DNA from: a virus
DNA length: 33,797 nt
Strand: one strand, 5' to 3'
Virus record (IMG/VR): IMGVR_UViG_3300030108_001246
Location: 1 to 33,797 of that record
Every line of letters begins with the position of its first letter. Positions within the stretch are counted from its first letter, which is position 1. Position numbers and translations under genes: made by a program. Positions 4,186-18,373 of this stretch are shown in pieces. A model generated the notes under the pieces. That model saw only the letters and a list, made by a program, of their open reading frames with translations. It did no database searches and was not told the origin of the DNA.

Positions 4186-6141
4186 TTATATTGCTTGCTT
4201 TGTATATTCTGATTCAGACCCTCTAGTCCACCCTCGTACAGATTCAGCGTGTTCTATCACTTTCTCTGCATCTTTTGCTTCGCCCCAATTTGGACCAAGT
4301 TCTACATCAACCTTTATTGGTACTTTTAACTCAACACAAGATTCCATTATATCTTTTATCTTTAGTGCTTGTTCAGGAGACTCGATTGAAAAGTCTAATT
4401 CATCGTGTACTTGAACATGAGGTATGATTCCTTCTTCGTATAAAAGTTGCATTGCTTTTTTAGTCATATCTGCTGCACTACCTTGTATTAATCTATTCAT
4501 AGCTTTATGTGTAAACGCCCTTTTAATAGCATTACCATATTCAGCGTAGGCAGTTTTATGATCCATAATTTTTCTTGTACCGAACTGCATTGGTTCCCAT
4601 TTATCGAAACGACAACGTCTGCCAAGTAATGTTCTTATGTTACCTTGATCTCCAGCACGTCGTACTGCTCTTTCGCTTAACGCTTTTACGAAAGGAACTC
4701 GTTCATGGTAACGACCAAATAATTCTTTACCCTCGTCTAATGTAAGCCCTAAACTATCAGATAGCTTTTGAACACCCATAGAATAAAATAAACCAAGATT
4801 AATATTCTTAGCTTGTTTTCTTGGTATACCTGCCATATCTGCAACGACTTGATGGAAGTCTGCATCGCCTGAACGAAATGCATCGCCTGCATCTTTGGCT
4901 CCTCGAAGTTCCATCATCTCAGCGTAATGAACCACGAGTCTTGGCTCTTGTTGAGAATAATCAAAGGCACCCCACTCACATTTACTTTCTGGGATGAAGA
5001 GGGATCTGATTGCTGTTCCTATCTCAGGATCTCTTGCTGGTACTTGTTGTAAGTTTGGATTACTATAGCTAAAACGACCTGTAACAGTTCCACCATCATC
5101 GGAACGTAAAGGATGAAGTTCTGCGTGTATACGACCTGATTGTTGATTACTCATAAGCATACCGTCAATAAAGGTAGTTCTTGCTTTATTCATCTTCCTT
5201 GCTTTTACAATAAGTTGAGGAAACTCATGTTCATGTTCCTCGAGCCATATCTGTTGAAAAGAAGGCGATCCTTTTTCTGTAAAGTTGTACGGTAAGTTAA
5301 GTTTCTTAAATGCTTTTTCTATAGATGCATTAGCCCATATTTCTACCTCTGAACCTACAAGCTGTTTTATTTTATGTAGGGCTTCCATTTCTTTTGCATG
5401 AAACTTCTTAGACATTTCTTCGGCTCGTTCTAAATCAATACGAACCCCTCTCATTCTCATTTCGATAAGCAAAGGAGTAATGGAAGCTTCTAGATTAAAT
5501 ATAGACCAAAGATCTTGTTTAGATAATTCTGTTTTAAAATGTTTCCATAAACGTAAAGTCAATGCAGCATCTTGCTCTGCATATGGACCAACATACATAG
5601 GTGGTAGCTCAGAAAGCCCTGATTTTGAATCTACATTCCATGCTTCTGCAGCATCGTTTAATAATTCTTCGTTCTTACTTTCTTGTAAGTAATGCCTACC
5701 TAAAGCGTTTAACGAATAACTAAAACGATTCTCATCAATAAGTGGTGCAGCAACCATCGTATCAATTATACGACCTTTAGTTTCAATACCCTCTGCTTTT
5801 AACCACCCTATATCATAAGAAGCATTATGACATATCTTATCTGAGTTAGTTGATAACATTTCTTTTAGCCAACTAAAGACTAACTTTTCATCTAAGTTAC
5901 CACCAGACCTATGTCGAACAGGAAAGTAACCTTGCCAACCCTCAGTAGCTAAAGCAATACCAACAATGTGACCATCCTTTCTCGCCCAACCTGAACCTTT
6001 TTCTTTTAAGTTCGGATCCCATGTTTCTAAGTCTATACATATTTCTTTAGCTTTTGATAAGTCAGGTAAAACTTCTGGTATCATCCAAGAACTGTCAGGT
6101 GTAAACAAAGGTTGCTGAAGAGGATTTTTATATTTTGGCAT
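4186..6141 (-). CDS. Family A DNA polymerase with 3'-5' exonuclease domain
   Basis: 651 residues; replicates the phage genome. The exonuclease domain is intact: Exo I DxE (D37, E39 in CIDLETWD), Exo II (HNASYD, N106, D110) and Exo III YxxxD (Y187, D191). The polymerase domain has motif A (FDYSQQEPRL, D394), motif B/O-helix (RKQAKNINLGLFYSMG, R441, K445, Y453) and motif C (QVHDELDF, H579-D580-E581). The O-helix residue equivalent to E. coli Phe762 is Leu (L449), one of the variants known in viral PolA. There is no 5'-3' exonuclease domain, as usual in phages. The ATG at 6141 follows AAGGGAAG; an upstream in-frame ATG at 6186 has no ribosome site. It sits directly downstream of the putative nucleotide-modification genes. 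Confidence 0.97.
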   Translation of the reverse strand: MPKYKNPLQQPLFTPDSSWMIPEVLPDLSKAKEICIDLETWDPNLKEKGSGWARKDGHIVGIALATEGWQGYFPVRHRSGGNLDEKLVFSWLKEMLSTNSDKICHNASYDIGWLKAEGIETKGRIIDTMVAAPLIDENRFSYSLNALGRHYLQESKNEELLNDAAEAWNVDSKSGLSELPPMYVGPYAEQDAALTLRLWKHFKTELSKQDLWSIFNLEASITPLLIEMRMRGVRIDLERAEEMSKKFHAKEMEALHKIKQLVGSEVEIWANASIEKAFKKLNLPYNFTEKGSPSFQQIWLEEHEHEFPQLIVKARKMNKARTTFIDGMLMSNQQSGRIHAELHPLRSDDGGTVTGRFSYSNPNLQQVPARDPEIGTAIRSLFIPESKCEWGAFDYSQQEPRLVVHYAEMMELRGAKDAGDAFRSGDADFHQVVADMAGIPRKQAKNINLGLFYSMGVQKLSDSLGLTLDEGKELFGRYHERVPFVKALSERAVRRAGDQGNIRTLLGRRCRFDKWEPMQFGTRKIMDHKTAYAEYGNAIKRAFTHKAMNRLIQGSAADMTKKAMQLLYEEGIIPHVQVHDELDFSIESPEQALKIKDIMESCVELKVPIKVDVELGPNWGEAKDAEKVIEHAESVRGWTRGSESEYTKQAI

Positions 6142-6175
6142 GTCTTTCTTCCCTTTCTCTAGGGAAGATTTTACC

Positions 6176-6547
6176 TTATTTACCATTCTTTTGTAAAGTC
6201 ATTTCGGCTTCAACTAAGAGTAGATAACGCCTTAAGTCTCGTATATCGTCTATAAGCCCCTCTTCTCTATTATCCTCTTTTAAAGCTAAGAAAACATCGT
6301 AAGTATAATCTTCTGCTTGCTTTTCTATACGATCCCACTTTCTAGCTAACATCATAAAAGCACCGATACCCCCTCGCTTTTTCCAACTATCACCATAGTC
6401 TTGTTCAGCTAAGTGTAATCCCTCAACATCTTCTATTGCAGCATTATGAACTTGGTTAATTATACGACTATAGTCTTCGCCATGAAGTTCACTCTCTTCT
6501 TGTAGCTTTTCATACTCTTCATCGTTTATTTTTTCCCTTTTTGTCAT
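6176..6547 (-). CDS. Nmad1/DUF1599-like protein (putative nucleotide-modification-associated)
   Basis: 123 residues. The core YGDSWKKRGG (51-60), ARKWDRIE (68-75) and DDIRDLRRYL (100-109) has the layout I associate with DUF1599, the nucleotide modification associated domain 1, a phage family often found beside thymidylate-synthase-like genes. The shape is also reminiscent of all-helical MazG-like nucleotide pyrophosphohydrolases, so hydrolysis of an unwanted dNTP is conceivable. Both assignments are by eye. It overlaps the end of the thymidylate synthase gene by 29 bases and abuts the polymerase gene, which fits a job in nucleotide supply. Confidence 0.6.
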   Translation of the reverse strand: MTKREKINDEEYEKLQEESELHGEDYSRIINQVHNAAIEDVEGLHLAEQDYGDSWKKRGGIGAFMMLARKWDRIEKQAEDYTYDVFLALKEDNREEGLIDDIRDLRRYLLLVEAEMTLQKNGK

Positions 6548-7589
6548 AGCTTTGTTTTCTCCTTTCTAACCATTCTATGCATGCTTTTCTCCAATCAGGT
6601 GCTTGGATAGTAGAGGCTTGGGATATTGCATGATCGAACTCTTTGTTTTTATAGAAGTTCCAAGCCTCCACCATAGGTAAAGCAGTATGTGCAAATGTAT
6701 TTGTATTTGCAAAGTGGTCAGGTGTTATCCACATACCACCCAACTGCTCGTTATTTTCTTTATCAACAATTAAATTAAAAAACCATTTTACATCTTGATC
6801 AAATTTAGAACCATCTTGTACTAAAGGTAATGGTTTTATTTCATTGTTATATTGACTTGGAGCTATACCTATTGGTAGTTTCTTTTCTAACCTTTCCCAT
6901 ATATTTATATACACATGAGCATTGTTACTTACTTGGTGATACCGACCTAATCGTAAACCAGACATTGAAGCAACGTATTCATGTAACATACTAAAATGTA
7001 CAGCGTTTGCACCATAAGCACCCCAGATTAAATCGTTAGACCTACACATGACAGTCATATCAAGAACATCCTCAGTGCTCTTCGGTGTATGGAAAAATGG
7101 TCTAGCTTTAAAATAAATCTGTGTGTTACATGGTACGTCTTTACCATCATAATATAAATCTTTAATAGGATCCCACATAGAAAGAACAATACGTCTATCA
7201 TATGGGTTTTCTTGTAACTTTCTTATTATAGCGTGTAGCTGATCATTAGCAAATTGGTTTCGCCAACGATAACCATACGCCCCATATAACGAGTGTCCAT
7301 CATCAGAATATTCTTCCATACGTTTAACAAATCTTGCTAGAGGTTTTACATCTCTACGACCTGCTAACATCCAAAGTCCTTCTATAAAATGAAAGAAAGG
7401 ATTACAATTCCTTTCTGCCATAAATAAAACTCTTTGATTAGGATATTTATAAGTCGAACAAACTGGATCAGGAAACATAAGTACATCGCCATTTCGACTT
7501 TTTACTTTTACTGTTTCGTTCTTTTCTCTTAGAGACATAAGAGCAATTTGAAAAACTTCTTCTACGTTATTACCTAAAAATGTTTTCAT
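6519..7589 (-). CDS. Thymidylate-synthase-family enzyme (possible dUMP hydroxymethylase)
   Basis: 356 residues. Family landmarks: YGYRWR (105-110), the catalytic Cys in VPCNTQ (C154), CRSNDLIWG (182-190), the pyrimidine-contacting Asn in GANAV (N195) and the phosphate/sugar-binding end NNAHVYIN. Conventional ThyA has His after the catalytic Cys; here it is Asn155. N195 is kept, which points to a uracil rather than a cytosine substrate (T4-type dCMP hydroxymethylase has Asp). The protein is longer than bacterial ThyA (about 264 aa). It could make dTMP, or 5-hydroxymethyl-dUMP as in SPO1-like phages. The ATG overlaps the stop of the helical-domain gene (ATGA), so the two are co-translated. Confidence 0.9.
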   Translation of the reverse strand: MKTFLGNNVEEVFQIALMSLREKNETVKVKSRNGDVLMFPDPVCSTYKYPNQRVLFMAERNCNPFFHFIEGLWMLAGRRDVKPLARFVKRMEEYSDDGHSLYGAYGYRWRNQFANDQLHAIIRKLQENPYDRRIVLSMWDPIKDLYYDGKDVPCNTQIYFKARPFFHTPKSTEDVLDMTVMCRSNDLIWGAYGANAVHFSMLHEYVASMSGLRLGRYHQVSNNAHVYINIWERLEKKLPIGIAPSQYNNEIKPLPLVQDGSKFDQDVKWFFNLIVDKENNEQLGGMWITPDHFANTNTFAHTALPMVEAWNFYKNKEFDHAISQASTIQAPDWRKACIEWLERRKQSYDKKGKNKR

Positions 7590-8416
7590 CTGTATAATCC
7601 CCTCGGTTTACCCTCGCCATTACGAACTCGTTCATATTTATCAAACTCGCATAAGCTATGTTCTATTTCTCGCATCTCCATTTTATGAGCAATTTCATAA
7701 GGAAGATAGTCGTATCTTAATTTATACAAGGCTTTCATCTCTGCATTCCAGTCGTGCTTTTTACTTTTATAATTTAAATCTCTTGCATGAATTCTATTTA
7801 ATCCTCGCATGGCTCCTGGACCAGCATTAGCCCAATGAACAATGTCAAATGATTTATCTAAATAAAAAGTATACCTTAAATCACACACAACTTCATAAGC
7901 CATGAAATGTCCTAGATATGGAAACTGTTGTAAAAGAAGATGAGCCCTCTTTAACGTATTTGTTTCGTGAAGTAATTCTACCATAGTACGGTCTCGTTTT
8001 TTCCATACTTTTTCTATACACCAAATAACACCATCGACTTTATCCATACCATCTGGTGTTTTGATTATATAACCTCCAGTAACATATTTATCTTGCTTTT
8101 TTATTTCTTCTCTAGCAAGTTCAGGATCCCAATCTATATGAAGATTATGTTTTAGTAATGTTTCTCCAGTTTGAATTAAGTTAAACCATCTAAAAATTAT
8201 TGTAGCCATAAATACTTCTTCTCTATTATGAAGAGGCTTTCTCATATTTTCACGAAACCAAACTGTTGTCTTATCGTTTTCACGAAAAGGATTAGTAAAA
8301 CGATAAGTATCTAATATTATATCTGTTGTCCATGGACGAGGAAGACCTTGTTCTTTTTTCTTAAAGATTTCATGTCGTTCCTCTATCCACCAAAAGAAGC
8401 GTCTTTCAGGTGTCAT
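7586..8416 (-). CDS. 5-hmdU DNA kinase-type helical-domain protein (DNA hypermodification)
   Basis: 276 residues matching, by memory of the family, the helical domain (HMUDK_hel) found in 5-hydroxymethyluracil DNA kinases and related aGPT-PPlase-like proteins of base-hypermodifying phages: WWIEERHEIFKKK, PWTTDIIL (28-35), YRFTNPFREND (38-48), FPYLGHFMAYEVVCDL (165-180), WANAGPGAMRGLNRIH (195-210) and a C-terminal CEFDKYERV. There is no P-loop, so the kinase domain of the fused versions is missing; this is the stand-alone form. Its probable role is to act on or recognise 5-hydroxymethyl-thymine in phage DNA. The start is an ATG at 8416; a TTG four codons upstream is in frame. It overlaps the thymidylate-synthase-like gene. 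Confidence 0.8.
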   Translation of the reverse strand: MTPERRFFWWIEERHEIFKKKEQGLPRPWTTDIILDTYRFTNPFRENDKTTVWFRENMRKPLHNREEVFMATIIFRWFNLIQTGETLLKHNLHIDWDPELAREEIKKQDKYVTGGYIIKTPDGMDKVDGVIWCIEKVWKKRDRTMVELLHETNTLKRAHLLLQQFPYLGHFMAYEVVCDLRYTFYLDKSFDIVHWANAGPGAMRGLNRIHARDLNYKSKKHDWNAEMKALYKLRYDYLPYEIAHKMEMREIEHSLCEFDKYERVRNGEGKPRGLYR

Positions 8417-8421
8417 TTTTA

Positions 8422-8634
8422 TTACCAATCATAAGGTTGATCTCGTTCCTCCTCCAAATCAATATCTTCACCTGGATCAGGATCTTTAAAAAACACAACA
8501 ATACAGTCGATATCATGATCCTTCTTTAATTTTTCAAACTGTTTACCTGAGTACGATTCTATATACCCCCAGTTTGTATGACCAAGCATTTGTCCACATA
8601 CATTATCTAGATCATCGCTTTTATATTTTGCCAT
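8422..8634 (-). CDS. Small acidic protein between modification genes
   Basis: 70 residues beginning MAKYKSDDLDNVCGQMLG and ending in an acidic tail (DPDPGEDIDLEEERDQ). The ATG overlaps the stop of the methyltransferase gene (TAATG) and has AAGGAAG upstream, which decides it over an in-frame start at 8658. Unknown family. Its position suggests a role in the same pathway. Confidence 0.65.
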   Translation of the reverse strand: MAKYKSDDLDNVCGQMLGHTNWGYIESYSGKQFEKLKKDHDIDCIVVFFKDPDPGEDIDLEEERDQPYDW

Positions 8635-9482
8635 TATACTTCCTTTCTTAATATCCAAGCACAGTTGTTTGCTGTCTCAGGATAAGCTGTTGCTAATATA
8701 ACTCTAGCCCAATGCTTATCAAACCTAGCTTCTATATCGTCAATCACGTTTTGTGACCATCTCATATTAGCACGATGGTTTTTCTTAAAGTTATTCATCT
8801 GAGTAAACACACCTTTCACATCTTTTATTGTGAAGTAACGACTTAACAACTCTTTTAATTCTTCAAACCCCCACTCGTAAAAGTGGTCTTTAGGTAATTT
8901 ATCATTAGAGCCATCATGGTTAGGTGTTGATATATAAGCTACTGCACCCATTCGCATCTTTTGATATGCACTACGCAACCAATAATCTATTGCATCTGGT
9001 TTCATATGTTCAATAACTTCTGTAGACCAAAACACATCTATGGTTTCGTTAGGAACATCAAACTCTGGATTAGTAGTTAAATCTTGGATATCAATACGAC
9101 TAAAAGGATTATTACCTGTCATCGTTTTAAACCATTGATGTTTTACTACAGACTCACTATCGTTTACCCACCAGTCATCTAAGCAAGCTGGATCAATATC
9201 AACTCCTACATACTGCTTAATTATCTTTTCTTTTTTAGAAACAAAAGCTTTATATAAGTATCGAAGAACCCATAATTCTCCACACCCAGCTTCTAAACAC
9301 TCGACTGGTCTACCAAGACGTTTTGCTTCATCCATAATTATCTGTCCTATCTTACAGAACCGACTTATATGAGCAAGTTCGTCTGGTCTCCAGTTAGCCA
9401 TAACTCCTGCACCTGCAATGTCCATTCTAGTATTCTTAGAATTGTTTTCATTTTGTGCTAACTTTTTTCTAATAGATGCCAT
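8634..9482 (-). CDS. Class I SAM-dependent methyltransferase
   Basis: 282 residues. SAM-binding motif I is LEAGCGELWVL (64-74), motif II is YVGVDID (acidic D95 for the ribose), and the motif IV/post-IV region is FWSTEVIEHM (151-160), followed by GAVAYISTPNH. This is a Rossmann-fold methyltransferase of the methyltransferase 11/23 type. No DNA-methylase NPPY motif is present, so the substrate may be a small molecule, a hypermodified base or a protein. The start at 9482 is set by AGGAG six bases upstream; an in-frame ATG at 9539 would overlap the upstream gene. Its place beside the thymine-modification genes is suggestive but not proof. Confidence 0.85.
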   Translation of the reverse strand: MASIRKKLAQNENNSKNTRMDIAGAGVMANWRPDELAHISRFCKIGQIIMDEAKRLGRPVECLEAGCGELWVLRYLYKAFVSKKEKIIKQYVGVDIDPACLDDWWVNDSESVVKHQWFKTMTGNNPFSRIDIQDLTTNPEFDVPNETIDVFWSTEVIEHMKPDAIDYWLRSAYQKMRMGAVAYISTPNHDGSNDKLPKDHFYEWGFEELKELLSRYFTIKDVKGVFTQMNNFKKNHRANMRWSQNVIDDIEARFDKHWARVILATAYPETANNCAWILRKEV

Positions 9483-9490
9483 ACTTTCTC

Positions 9491-9787
9491 CTATTCTACT
9501 CGCCAGATTCTTATTCCAACTACATCGTCTTTTTCCCACATACGCTGTGTAAAACGAACACCTTCGTTTCTTTTTTGATATGATTGTCTGGCTTGGCTTA
9601 GACGATTAGCCATACGTTTTAAATCGTCACCCTCTTCTAAAGGTAAGAAAAAAGACTGACCTACTTCTAAATCTGATAGTGGGTATTTTCTTTCGACAGC
9701 CCTACGATCAGATCCTGGAGGTACAGGAATATCATCTTCTATTTCTATACCTAACTTCACGGTTGGTTGTTTTAGTTCTTCTGACAT
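9491..9787 (-). CDS. Small conserved phage protein, unknown function
   Basis: 98 residues: an acidic/proline N-terminus (EIEDDIPVPPGSDRRAVERK) and a globular part YPLSDLEVGQSFFLP...RLSQARQSYQKRNEGVRFTQR ending VGIRIWRVE. I have seen this arrangement in small phage proteins near replication genes (DUF7303-like), but the function is unknown. AAAGGATG precedes the ATG. It is the first gene after the 77-bp gap that holds a candidate promoter. Confidence 0.75.
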   Translation of the reverse strand: MSEELKQPTVKLGIEIEDDIPVPPGSDRRAVERKYPLSDLEVGQSFFLPLEEGDDLKRMANRLSQARQSYQKRNEGVRFTQRMWEKDDVVGIRIWRVE

Positions 9788-9864: not shown

Positions 9865-11367
9865 TCATACCATAAAATATTTATTGGTTGTCGGTTGTAT
9901 AATATGAAGCTTTTGTTTTGCTCTTGTCAACCCTACATAAAATACACGAGTATCATCGTCAGGTTCTTTTTCATACGCTTTCCAAGTTCTATGAGGTATG
10001 TCTGTAAAAAGAATTACATTATCAGCTTCTCCTCCTTTAGCTGAGTGTATAGTTGATAAAGTTATTCTAGGCTTTTTAGTTATCTTTTCACCTTTTCGTA
10101 GCATGGCTAAAATATAACTTCTTTCATGTGGGCTTAACGCTGTAAACATATCATGCCATATTTTTGCTTCAGGTAGTTCTGCTTTTACTGTTACTTCTTT
10201 TAGAGTTAACTTTAACGATGGCTCTAAATCATCAAATACTTTTCGTTTAGCCCCCTTTATATACTGAACAATATCACTAGCTTGATCAGGGAAAACAAAC
10301 TCACCCTTTCTTAACTTCTCCCAGTTTTTTACTGCATCAACTTTTTTCTGTGATATAGAAGGATTATTCTTTCTATCGAAGTAAACACCTAATCCTCTAC
10401 AATGTGCTTCAACTTCATTTAAAAAATAATTAGAACGTGATAGAATTAACCATTCGCCAGAGGTTATATCAACATGCTCGAAATGTGTTTCGGTAACGAC
10501 ATCACCCAAGTCCTCCCTTGGTTGCCAAATTTTATCTGTTCTTGTCTTAACACGCCTTATTACTTGGTTAGCGATATCGAAAATCCTTTTAGGAATTCTA
10601 TAACTCTTTTCCAAGACACGAGCCCCTTGGGATATATCAATAAGAAAATTTACATCTGCCCCTGCCCATCTAAAGATAGCTTGGTCATCGTCACCAGCAA
10701 TATAGACTCTCTTAGAATTCTTTGCGAGGACTCTTATTAACTGCCATTGTAAAGGACTTAAATCTTGAGCTTCGTCTACAAACATAACATCTAGTTTTGG
10801 AGATAGTTGTTTTGTTACACATAAGTCTAGCATATCTGTAAAATCATATAGACCACGAGCCTTTTTAAATTTCTGTAGCCCTAAGGAAAACCTTTCTAAC
10901 ATATGCCAATCAATATCTTCATCGTAGTGGTTTTGCCATTCTTGTCGTAATCCTACACACCGAAGACGTGATAGTCCTTCAACAAATTTTAGTTTATCAT
11001 CTTTCGATAACATAGAAATAGCACCCTCTTCAAGTGTCATCTCACCTGTTAATCGCATTCCCATTATATCGTTAAACTCTCTATAGTTAGAACGTCCCAT
11101 AACAGATTCTCTCGATAAGCCTAACATACGATAGCATAAGGAATGAAGTGTTCTAAAATTAGGTATGTCTTTTCCTGCAAGTCCGAAACGTGACATTGTT
11201 CTTTCTTTACCCTCTTCTGAGGCTTTTTTAGTAAAAGCAAAATATCCTATTCTATCAGGGGGCGTTCCTTTTTCCATTTCCATTTCGATAAGGTTTAAGA
11301 TAGTCGTTGTCTTACCTGTTCCTGGTGGACCAAGTATAATAGACCATGAACTTGTATCCTCGCTCAA
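9865..11367 (-). CDS. SF1 UvrD/Rep-like DNA helicase
   Basis: 500 residues. Walker A GPPGTGKT (13-20), motif II DEAQD (198-202), motif III GDDDQAIFRWAGA (225-237), motif V ITLSTIHSAKGGEADNV (435-451) and motif VI RVFYVGLTRAK (474-484) are all present, so it should be an active ATP-driven helicase of the UvrD/Rep/PcrA group. It may unwind the fork or act in recombination; no DnaB-type helicase is seen in this window. The start is a TTG overlapping the primase stop (TTGA) with AAGGGG eight bases upstream. The accessory 1B/2B domains are shorter than in bacterial UvrD (about 720 aa). Confidence 0.93.
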   Translation of the reverse strand: MSEDTSSWSIILGPPGTGKTTTILNLIEMEMEKGTPPDRIGYFAFTKKASEEGKERTMSRFGLAGKDIPNFRTLHSLCYRMLGLSRESVMGRSNYREFNDIMGMRLTGEMTLEEGAISMLSKDDKLKFVEGLSRLRCVGLRQEWQNHYDEDIDWHMLERFSLGLQKFKKARGLYDFTDMLDLCVTKQLSPKLDVMFVDEAQDLSPLQWQLIRVLAKNSKRVYIAGDDDQAIFRWAGADVNFLIDISQGARVLEKSYRIPKRIFDIANQVIRRVKTRTDKIWQPREDLGDVVTETHFEHVDITSGEWLILSRSNYFLNEVEAHCRGLGVYFDRKNNPSISQKKVDAVKNWEKLRKGEFVFPDQASDIVQYIKGAKRKVFDDLEPSLKLTLKEVTVKAELPEAKIWHDMFTALSPHERSYILAMLRKGEKITKKPRITLSTIHSAKGGEADNVILFTDIPHRTWKAYEKEPDDDTRVFYVGLTRAKQKLHIIQPTTNKYFMV

Positions 11368-17628: not shown

Positions 17629-17763
17629 TTACCCTCGCTTTTTTGCTTTCCTTAATTTTTTAAAGTCTGCTCCTGTAATTTTATTTCTTGGTGGTGCCAG
17701 ACTTGCTATCTTCATCTGCTTTCCTGTTAGCTTTTTCTTTTTTCGTTTTCCAGTGGTACTCAT
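17629..17763 (-). CDS. 44-residue highly basic protein, overlapping the 230-aa gene
   Basis: ATG at 17763 with GGAGA six bases upstream; stop TAA one base before the holin start. The protein runs MSTTGKRKKKKLTGKQ, then MKIASLAPPRNKITGADFKK and LRKAKKRG: 19 Lys or Arg in 44 residues. The APPRNKIT-ADFK core resembles very small basic proteins I recall from marine phages. It overlaps the last 83 bases of the preceding gene in another frame. Good ribosome site, precise spacing to the holin and a protein-like composition support it. The role is unknown; DNA binding is plausible. Confidence 0.75.
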   Translation of the reverse strand: MSTTGKRKKKKLTGKQMKIASLAPPRNKITGADFKKLRKAKKRG

Positions 17764-18373
17764 CTGTATCTCCTAATCTAGTGTTGTTACCATTTTCTAC
17801 TTGATACTCTATTGTGCTTACTTTAAAATCTGGTGTAAAGGGTTTTTCTGGTGTTAAAGAATTATCATATATTCTCATTCTATTATTTGGATATAAACAA
17901 TATTGACCATTGTTTAACTGTATTAAGTTAAAAGACTTATGTTCGTCTGGTTGTTCACTTGTACTATAATCAACAGTATCAGCACTACCATGATAATTAT
18001 CTAAAGTACATACATAGATACCTTGTAATGTACCAAAGTCACGAGTGTATATTTCAAAGTCCATTGAACCTATAAACTGTTTTTCTATAGCAGTAACATT
18101 ATAATCCATGCAATTCCAAAACTGGAGATTTGGAAGATCAAGATCAGGATCTGGTGTCTTAGGTTCTCGCAAGAATGCAGATATAGGTAACTTATCATAC
18201 AAAGCACCATACTCAGGAAGAAAGGACTCAAAATAAAATGCTCTTCCAGGAATAGATTTGGCTGAAATCCAAACACCTTTTACAAACTCCCCATACCCTG
18301 ATTCATGATCCATCAAATATTCTTTTCTTATCCATACGTGTTGAGCTGGAAGATTACAAATTAAAGTACTCAT
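17681..18373 (-). CDS. Conserved phage protein of unknown function (230 aa)
   Basis: Begins MSTLICNLPAQHVWIRKEYL, then GEFVKGVWISAKSIPGRAFY and GALYDKLPISAFL, a pattern I associate with a conserved but uncharacterised marine-phage protein found late in the genome. Soluble and acidic, with a lysine-rich C-terminal tail. The ATG overlaps the previous stop (TAATG) and no clear ribosome site is present, so it probably depends on translational coupling. Its 3' end overlaps the 44-aa basic gene. Confidence 0.75.
   Translation of the reverse strand: MSTLICNLPAQHVWIRKEYLMDHESGYGEFVKGVWISAKSIPGRAFYFESFLPEYGALYDKLPISAFLREPKTPDPDLDLPNLQFWNCMDYNVTAIEKQFIGSMDFEIYTRDFGTLQGIYVCTLDNYHGSADTVDYSTSEQPDEHKSFNLIQLNNGQYCLYPNNRMRIYDNSLTPEKPFTPDFKVSTIEYQVENGNNTRLGDTDEYHWKTKKEKANRKADEDSKSGTTKK

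Follow-up and report, generated by a model that had tools for sequence, protein, structure and literature searches.

In this study, a stretch of viral DNA of 33,797 nucleotides (the window), representing positions 1–33797 of the 36.7-kb IMG/VR record IMGVR_UViG_3300030108_001246, was found to carry a gene cassette that very probably performs thymine modification based on 5-hydroxymethyl-deoxyuridine (5-hmdU), as homology and synteny jointly suggest. The cassette, located on the minus strand between positions 9482 and 6176, is tightly packed, encodes a methyltransferase (MT), a 70-aa open reading frame (ORF), a helical protein of family PF18723 (HEL), a thymidylate synthase homologue (TS), and a 123-aa protein (p123), and ends at the gene for DNA polymerase A (PolA). 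For its product, 5-methoxymethyl-deoxyuridine is tentatively put forward as the leading candidate. An earlier note on this DNA had described a thymine hypermodification cassette of a marine phage. The 5-hmdU basis and the replacement of the kinase and pyridoxal phosphate (PLP) enzymes by a methyltransferase were upheld, whereas an Nmad1-like label for p123 and the inclusion of the 70-aa ORF were not. Likewise, the packing, the gene order, and the position upstream of the DNA polymerase gene were recovered as described, and the methylated hydroxymethyl-thymine named there as a possible end product is the one that the present evidence favors. The cassette and its flanking genes comprise the following features:

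8634–9482, minus strand: MT, S-adenosylmethionine (SAM)-dependent methyltransferase, 282 aa (PF13489, E 1.1e-11; alignments of relatives)
7586–8428, minus strand: HEL, PF18723 (HMUDK_hel/aGPT-PPlase1) homologue, probable ATG start at 8416 (E 1.2e-48)
6519–7589, minus strand: TS, predicted 5-hydroxymethylase of deoxyuridine monophosphate (dUMP) (PF00303, E 4.7e-23; phrog_5131, E 2e-102)
6176–6547, minus strand: p123, conserved 123-aa protein with no Pfam match and with a motif common to the TS extension of phage LuckyBarnes
8422–8634, minus strand: 70-aa ORF (78 aa if read from a TTG at 8658), accessory, no family above the cut-off
4186–6186, minus strand: PolA, DNA polymerase A, directly downstream of the cassette (PF00476, E 2.9e-65)
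9865–11367, minus strand: UvrD-like helicase, upstream flank of the cassette (profile search)
9491–9787: DUF7303 protein, directly upstream of MT

The TS protein, a thymidylate synthase homologue as the earlier note had proposed, matched both the thymidylate synthase family and phrog_5131 and was found to be 42–48% identical to the TS of phage M6 (Yuavirus). Alignment with M6, Ab18 (Abidjanvirus), and CMP hydroxymethylase revealed that the catalytic Cys154 (PCN), the RSND stretch (RSxD motif), and Asn195 (GAN) are conserved, the base-recognition position being occupied by Asn and not Asp. Judged by its residues, TS belongs to the uracil-type (dUMP) branch of the thymidylate synthase superfamily, and its grouping with M6-type enzymes (phrog_5131) predicts a dUMP 5-hydroxymethylase. 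In the proposed pathway, TS would convert dUMP to 5-hydroxymethyl-dUMP, a step well supported by homology, and this nucleotide would then replace thymidine in the DNA, either partly or completely.

HEL was assigned to PF18723 over almost its full length (positions 6–278 of 281) with 166.4 bits against a cut-off of 25, in line with the HMUDK helical domain suggested before. The same family is present in M6 gp055, phiW-14 gp72, a ViI-like Kuttervirus, and PaMx11, all of them phages with measured thymine hypermodification or close relatives of such phages. The AlphaFold2 (AF2) model of HEL is all-helical and of high confidence (pLDDT 96), and its fold matched 8-oxoguanine glycosylases (OGG, Z 11.0) and PaMx11 gp46, a 5-PmdU glycinyltransferase (PUGT; Z 10.9 over 210 residues at 3.6 Å); no solved relative was found by sequence search. 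Since the E-values of a Foldseek search were not significant and all-helical models give high background Z-scores, evidence for an HhH-GPD/PUGT-like, base-flipping-type fold is moderate. The invariant residues of HEL suggest an active site, and the protein may present 5-hmdU in DNA to the next enzyme of the pathway.

MT represents a class I, SAM-dependent methyltransferase, as anticipated. Its ATG at 9482 (start MASIR) is common to relatives; an upstream GTG would lengthen the protein to 9539. Three motifs were recognized, namely E155-V-I-E158-H159, S-T-P-N188, and D199-H200-x-Y-E-W, and the corresponding ExxEH, STPN, and DHxxEW are present in 54/54 MT sequences. In HEN1, the residues conserved around the active site are E796/E799/H800, T826/N828, and H860 (PMC1397878), and the correspondence of the MT motifs to these positions identifies them as residues of HEN1-type O-methyltransferases. 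The MT profile also aligned the motif residues with those of the bacterial Hen1 structures 3jwg and 3jwi, albeit in a weak match (E 0.35–0.48). The AF2 model (pLDDT 81) matched CmoM (Z 17.7), METTL6 (Z 17.5), and HEN1 (Z 15.9, 21% identity), many class I methyltransferases scoring alike. In contrast to the HEN1 RNA 2'-O-methyltransferases, which MT resembles in motifs and fold, MT stands in a phage context, has a DNA base as its presumed substrate, and lacks RNA-binding domains. HEN1 methylates a hydroxyl using a bound metal ion held by ExxEH/H-type residues. In DNA, which offers no 2'-OH, the obvious alternative alcohol for such an enzyme would be that of the 5-hmdU hydroxymethyl group. MT would then methylate the hydroxymethyl oxygen, yielding 5-methoxymethyl-deoxyuridine, and neither phosphorylation nor amino-acid transfer would be needed. 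The first 40 residues of MT (window 9363–9482) contain an invariant SIR..L..N.N.SKNTRMD pattern, yet were predicted with low confidence; this segment is possibly a lid or a partner- or DNA-binding segment.

To what extent MT, HEL, and TS belong together is evident from their relatives. Searching with the MT alignment recovered MT relatives in 157 viral contigs, the best 80 of which were kept. The gene order UvrD, small ORF(s), MT, HEL, TS, p123, PolA was found in the window and in 23 close relatives, as far as the contigs reach, and beyond this first set MT was followed by HEL (with at most one small ORF between them), TS, and PolA in all of the 53 intact loci examined; one further contig breaks off within MT. 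This order is retained down to identities of 39% for TS and 46% for HEL, indicating an association far beyond chance. Moreover, only tiny ORFs lie between UvrD and PolA in HTVC023P, HTVC027P, and 023Pt_psg01, where MT, HEL, TS, and p123 are jointly missing; the cultured relatives are thus devoid of the entire block.

When a diverse alignment of HEL was used as the query, 566 HEL relatives were identified, and 80 loci were kept. Among 129 HEL loci, MT accompanied HEL in 72, a kinase in 12 (10 of them with an amino-acid:DNA transferase, ADDT), and a TAGT-type glycosyltransferase in 11, and none of the loci combined two of these three; at least one contig was counted twice and the sequences are related, so that the counts do not represent independent events. 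MT occupies the slot just upstream of HEL, which in M6 and Ab18 is that of the kinase. Because HEL also occurs with MT or a glycosyltransferase in loci devoid of a kinase, the link to the kinase implied by the Pfam name of PF18723 is not an obligatory one; PF18723 is a helical protein distinct from the kinase. Phage M6, representing the 5-NedU pathway, shares with the window a dUMP-type TS and a PF18723 protein in the same order upstream of PolA: its kinase directly precedes PF18723, after which come Nmad5 and TS, PolA lying at a greater distance and ADDT upstream. However, M6 possesses the HMUDK kinase, ADDT, a radical SAM enzyme, a PLP enzyme, and Nmad5, whereas the window features MT instead. 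The closest cultured HEL group (about 42–43% identity) is that of PaMx11/Ab18, with the N-alpha-GlyT/5-NmdU pathway. Here, TS also directly follows HEL, the Ab18 kinase being directly upstream of PF18723, ADDT upstream, and PolA further on; kinase, ADDT, and an FAD oxidoreductase are encoded there and not in the window, and MT is absent. The kinase and ADDT that define the M6/ViI pathway are thus lacking from the window, the core of TS and PF18723 being common to both. Brevibacterium phage LuckyBarnes and marine TAGT loci resemble the window in having TS and PF18723 with neither kinase nor ADDT, but their decorating enzyme is a glycosyltransferase (PF20691); LuckyBarnes encodes TS, two TAGT enzymes, and HEL, with no kinase nearby. 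In other marine HEL–TS loci (L069–L080, L101–L105, and L121–L127), TAGT and divergent GT-B glycosyltransferases, an FkbM methyltransferase, a SPASM radical SAM protein, and a cytidylyltransferase–cupin fusion were observed as putative decorators, and these loci predict further thymine derivatives.

The absence of the P-loop kinase, reported before for the window, was extended to the rest of the record and to 46 other MT-bearing contigs of up to 68 kb, none of which matched the HMUDK kinase profile PF18748; the Ab18 kinase, used as an additional query on part of these contigs, found none either. ADDT (PF18724) was likewise missing from the window record and from those MT-bearing contigs that were searched for it, the longest being 68 kb. 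In these searches, M6 and Ab18 were matched as positive controls, and the contigs may be incomplete. In two contigs of approximately 60 kb that were listed gene by gene and contain the terminase and the full run of structural genes, UvrD was the only ORF of at least 120 aa with a Walker A motif. As far as these MT-bearing contigs reach, a kinase hidden elsewhere was accordingly discarded on the basis of the kinase and ADDT searches and these ORF lists. No terminal repeats were found in G002, G006, and G020, and the completeness of these contigs is therefore not proven. Twelve profiles that represent the decorators seen in HEL loci without MT (glycosyltransferases of the TAGT and GT-B types, FkbM methyltransferase, radical SAM, and cytidylyltransferase) gave no match in the whole MT contigs G002, G006, G012, and G020 or in the MT loci, and were positive elsewhere. 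A search with the glycosyltransferase family PF13692 was uninformative, as contigs with known glycosyltransferases gave no match either.

Distant MT homologues (24–28% identity) were detected in Stenotrophomonas phage AXL3 and in MW202510, beside genes for an NTP pyrophosphohydrolase, a kinase-like protein, and TS (L214:5845-8987 for AXL3 and L212:7372-10168). The AXL3 cluster (gp31–gp28) resembles the window in combining an MT homologue (28%) with a TS homologue, but no PF18723 neighbor was found, and in the TS of AXL3 and MW202510 the base-recognition residue is Asp, as it is in enzymes for CMP/dCMP. AXL3 DNA was reported to resist 35 of 37 restriction enzymes, only two with A/T-only sites being able to cut (PMC7504290). 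Together with the Asp-type TS, this fits a modified cytosine rather than thymidylate synthesis, which had been proposed. The location of MT homologues beside a cytosine-type TS suggests that the MT family follows pyrimidine hydroxymethylases generally.

Several points weigh against 5-methoxymethyl-deoxyuridine as the product. Sequence similarity to Hen1 is weak (E 0.35), and methyltransferases for small molecules have the xxEH motif as well. MT could act on the nucleotide or another group. The fold matches of HEL are moderate (Z about 11 for an all-helical protein) and its role in modification is a prediction, the contigs are not proven complete, and no MT-bearing phage was found in culture, the cultured-phage collection containing no close relative of MT. 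It is conceivable, though rather improbable, that 5-hydroxymethyl-dUMP, or the corresponding triphosphate, is the substrate of MT prior to replication and that HEL has a separate role at the DNA level. The MT fold is common to many small-molecule methyltransferases, and the AXL3 and MW202510 homologues adjoin nucleotide pyrophosphohydrolase and kinase genes; however, the adjacency of MT and HEL is invariant, and the best structural matches include the RNA methyltransferases CmoM, METTL6, and HEN1. These same matches would suit virion DNA containing plain 5-hmdU, with MT serving an unrelated purpose such as RNA methylation, and phages with plain 5-hmdU exist (PMC7653180). We consider this doubtful indeed, since MT is gained and lost together with HEL and TS and excludes other decorators.

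Unlikely, though less so than these two, is the explanation that HEL itself is an aGPT-PPlase/ADDT-type transferase, adding a small group to 5-hmdU with no separate kinase involved, MT methylating that group to, e.g., a methyl ester or N-methyl derivative. The resemblance of the HEL model to the PaMx11 glycinyltransferase, the invariant residues, and the many HEL loci lacking a kinase would agree with such an activity. However, a separate ADDT and kinase coexist with HEL in M6, Ab18, and others, which indicates that HEL is probably not an amino-acid transferase there, and an unphosphorylated hydroxyl would, on chemical grounds, be a poor leaving group. Finally, TS could simply supply nucleotides as ordinary thymidylate synthases do, with HEL and MT not modifying DNA at all. 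Other marine phages have TS genes presumed to serve thymidylate synthesis only (PMC9599517), but the TS of the window falls into the phrog of M6-type enzymes, with the identity to M6 given above, and is tied to PF18723, making this explanation highly improbable.

The strongly conserved p123 features the motif YGDSWKKRGG...ARKWDR...DDIRDLRRYLLL and adjoins TS or PolA in most relatives. The Nmad1-like label was abandoned because no Nmad or DUF1599 match was obtained for 11 relatives at E-values up to 5, the best hit (E 0.08) being to unrelated families. The TS of LuckyBarnes (L049:3825-5378) carries a C-terminal extension with a p123-like YGxSWxxRG...RKxDR motif (hhalign E 4.6e-05, 27 columns), suggesting that p123 works with TS. 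The 70-aa ORF between MT and HEL was found only in the window and in two near-identical contigs (L003 and L004), with no convincing family in profile searches, and is accessory rather than a conserved part of the cassette. In a sister group (L170:1881-2099, L199:9746-9967, and similar), a conserved 73-aa ORF (LLEEYGDxVDIYYTQFLEVAFFLKV) lies between HEL and TS. Upstream of MT, most close relatives (L005–L024) encode a protein of 128–174 aa with the conserved C-terminus KHPERGxxQMMVILDxL...KHYLREMVDNGYI, in the place of which the window has the DUF7303 protein.

The PolA of the window (50–57% identity to that of HTVC023P-type pelagiphages) was closest to 023Pt_psg01, DSL-LC04, HTVC023P, and HTVC027P, which were the top four records, and the same four were closest to the terminase (54–60% identity to 023P-type records) of G002, a 59-kb contig near-identical to the window. 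On these similarities, the phage is placed in the HTVC023P-type pelagiphage lineage or among its near neighbors. HTVC023P-type pelagiphages are viruses infecting SAR11 bacteria, and for their clades V, VIII, and IX, TS and aG/PT-PPlase1 near PolA, the arrangement also seen here, were previously reported and thymidine hypermodification was suggested (Wittmers et al. 2022, PMC9599517). The word 'methyltransferase' is absent from the main text of that study, which likewise does not describe that MT excludes kinase, ADDT, and glycosyltransferases; the linkage of MT to HEL, TS, and PolA, its spread over 157 contigs, and this exclusion are new. A literature search found no paper that combines methoxymethyl and hydroxymethyluracil with bacteriophage DNA, a result that speaks only weakly for novelty. 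The window also encodes a ferredoxin-annotated protein (17681–18373; phrog_3704, E 7e-109), whose gene may be an auxiliary one and is present in G002 as well, and a short stretch of unknown bases follows in the record just past the window end (about 33797–33810), within a structural ORF.

Extending the proposed pathway to the whole lineage, these widespread, uncultured HTVC023P-type ocean phages may carry 5-methoxymethyl-deoxyuridine made by a HEN1-like MT and its PF18723 partner, with PF18723 acting as a general 5-hmdU-handling partner of kinases, glycosyltransferases, or methyltransferases; we regard this wider proposal as possible, with more doubt than for the cassette itself. The role of PF18723 is narrowed in any case, its partners being a kinase, a glycosyltransferase, or a methyltransferase. 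As the enzymes are few and small, the pathway could be rebuilt in vitro and its product read by liquid chromatography–mass spectrometry (LC-MS). If true, 5-methoxymethyl-deoxyuridine would be a DNA base not described before, and the cassette would represent a kinase-free, methylation-based branch of thymine hypermodification, found in phages whose host group ranks among the most abundant bacteria of the ocean.

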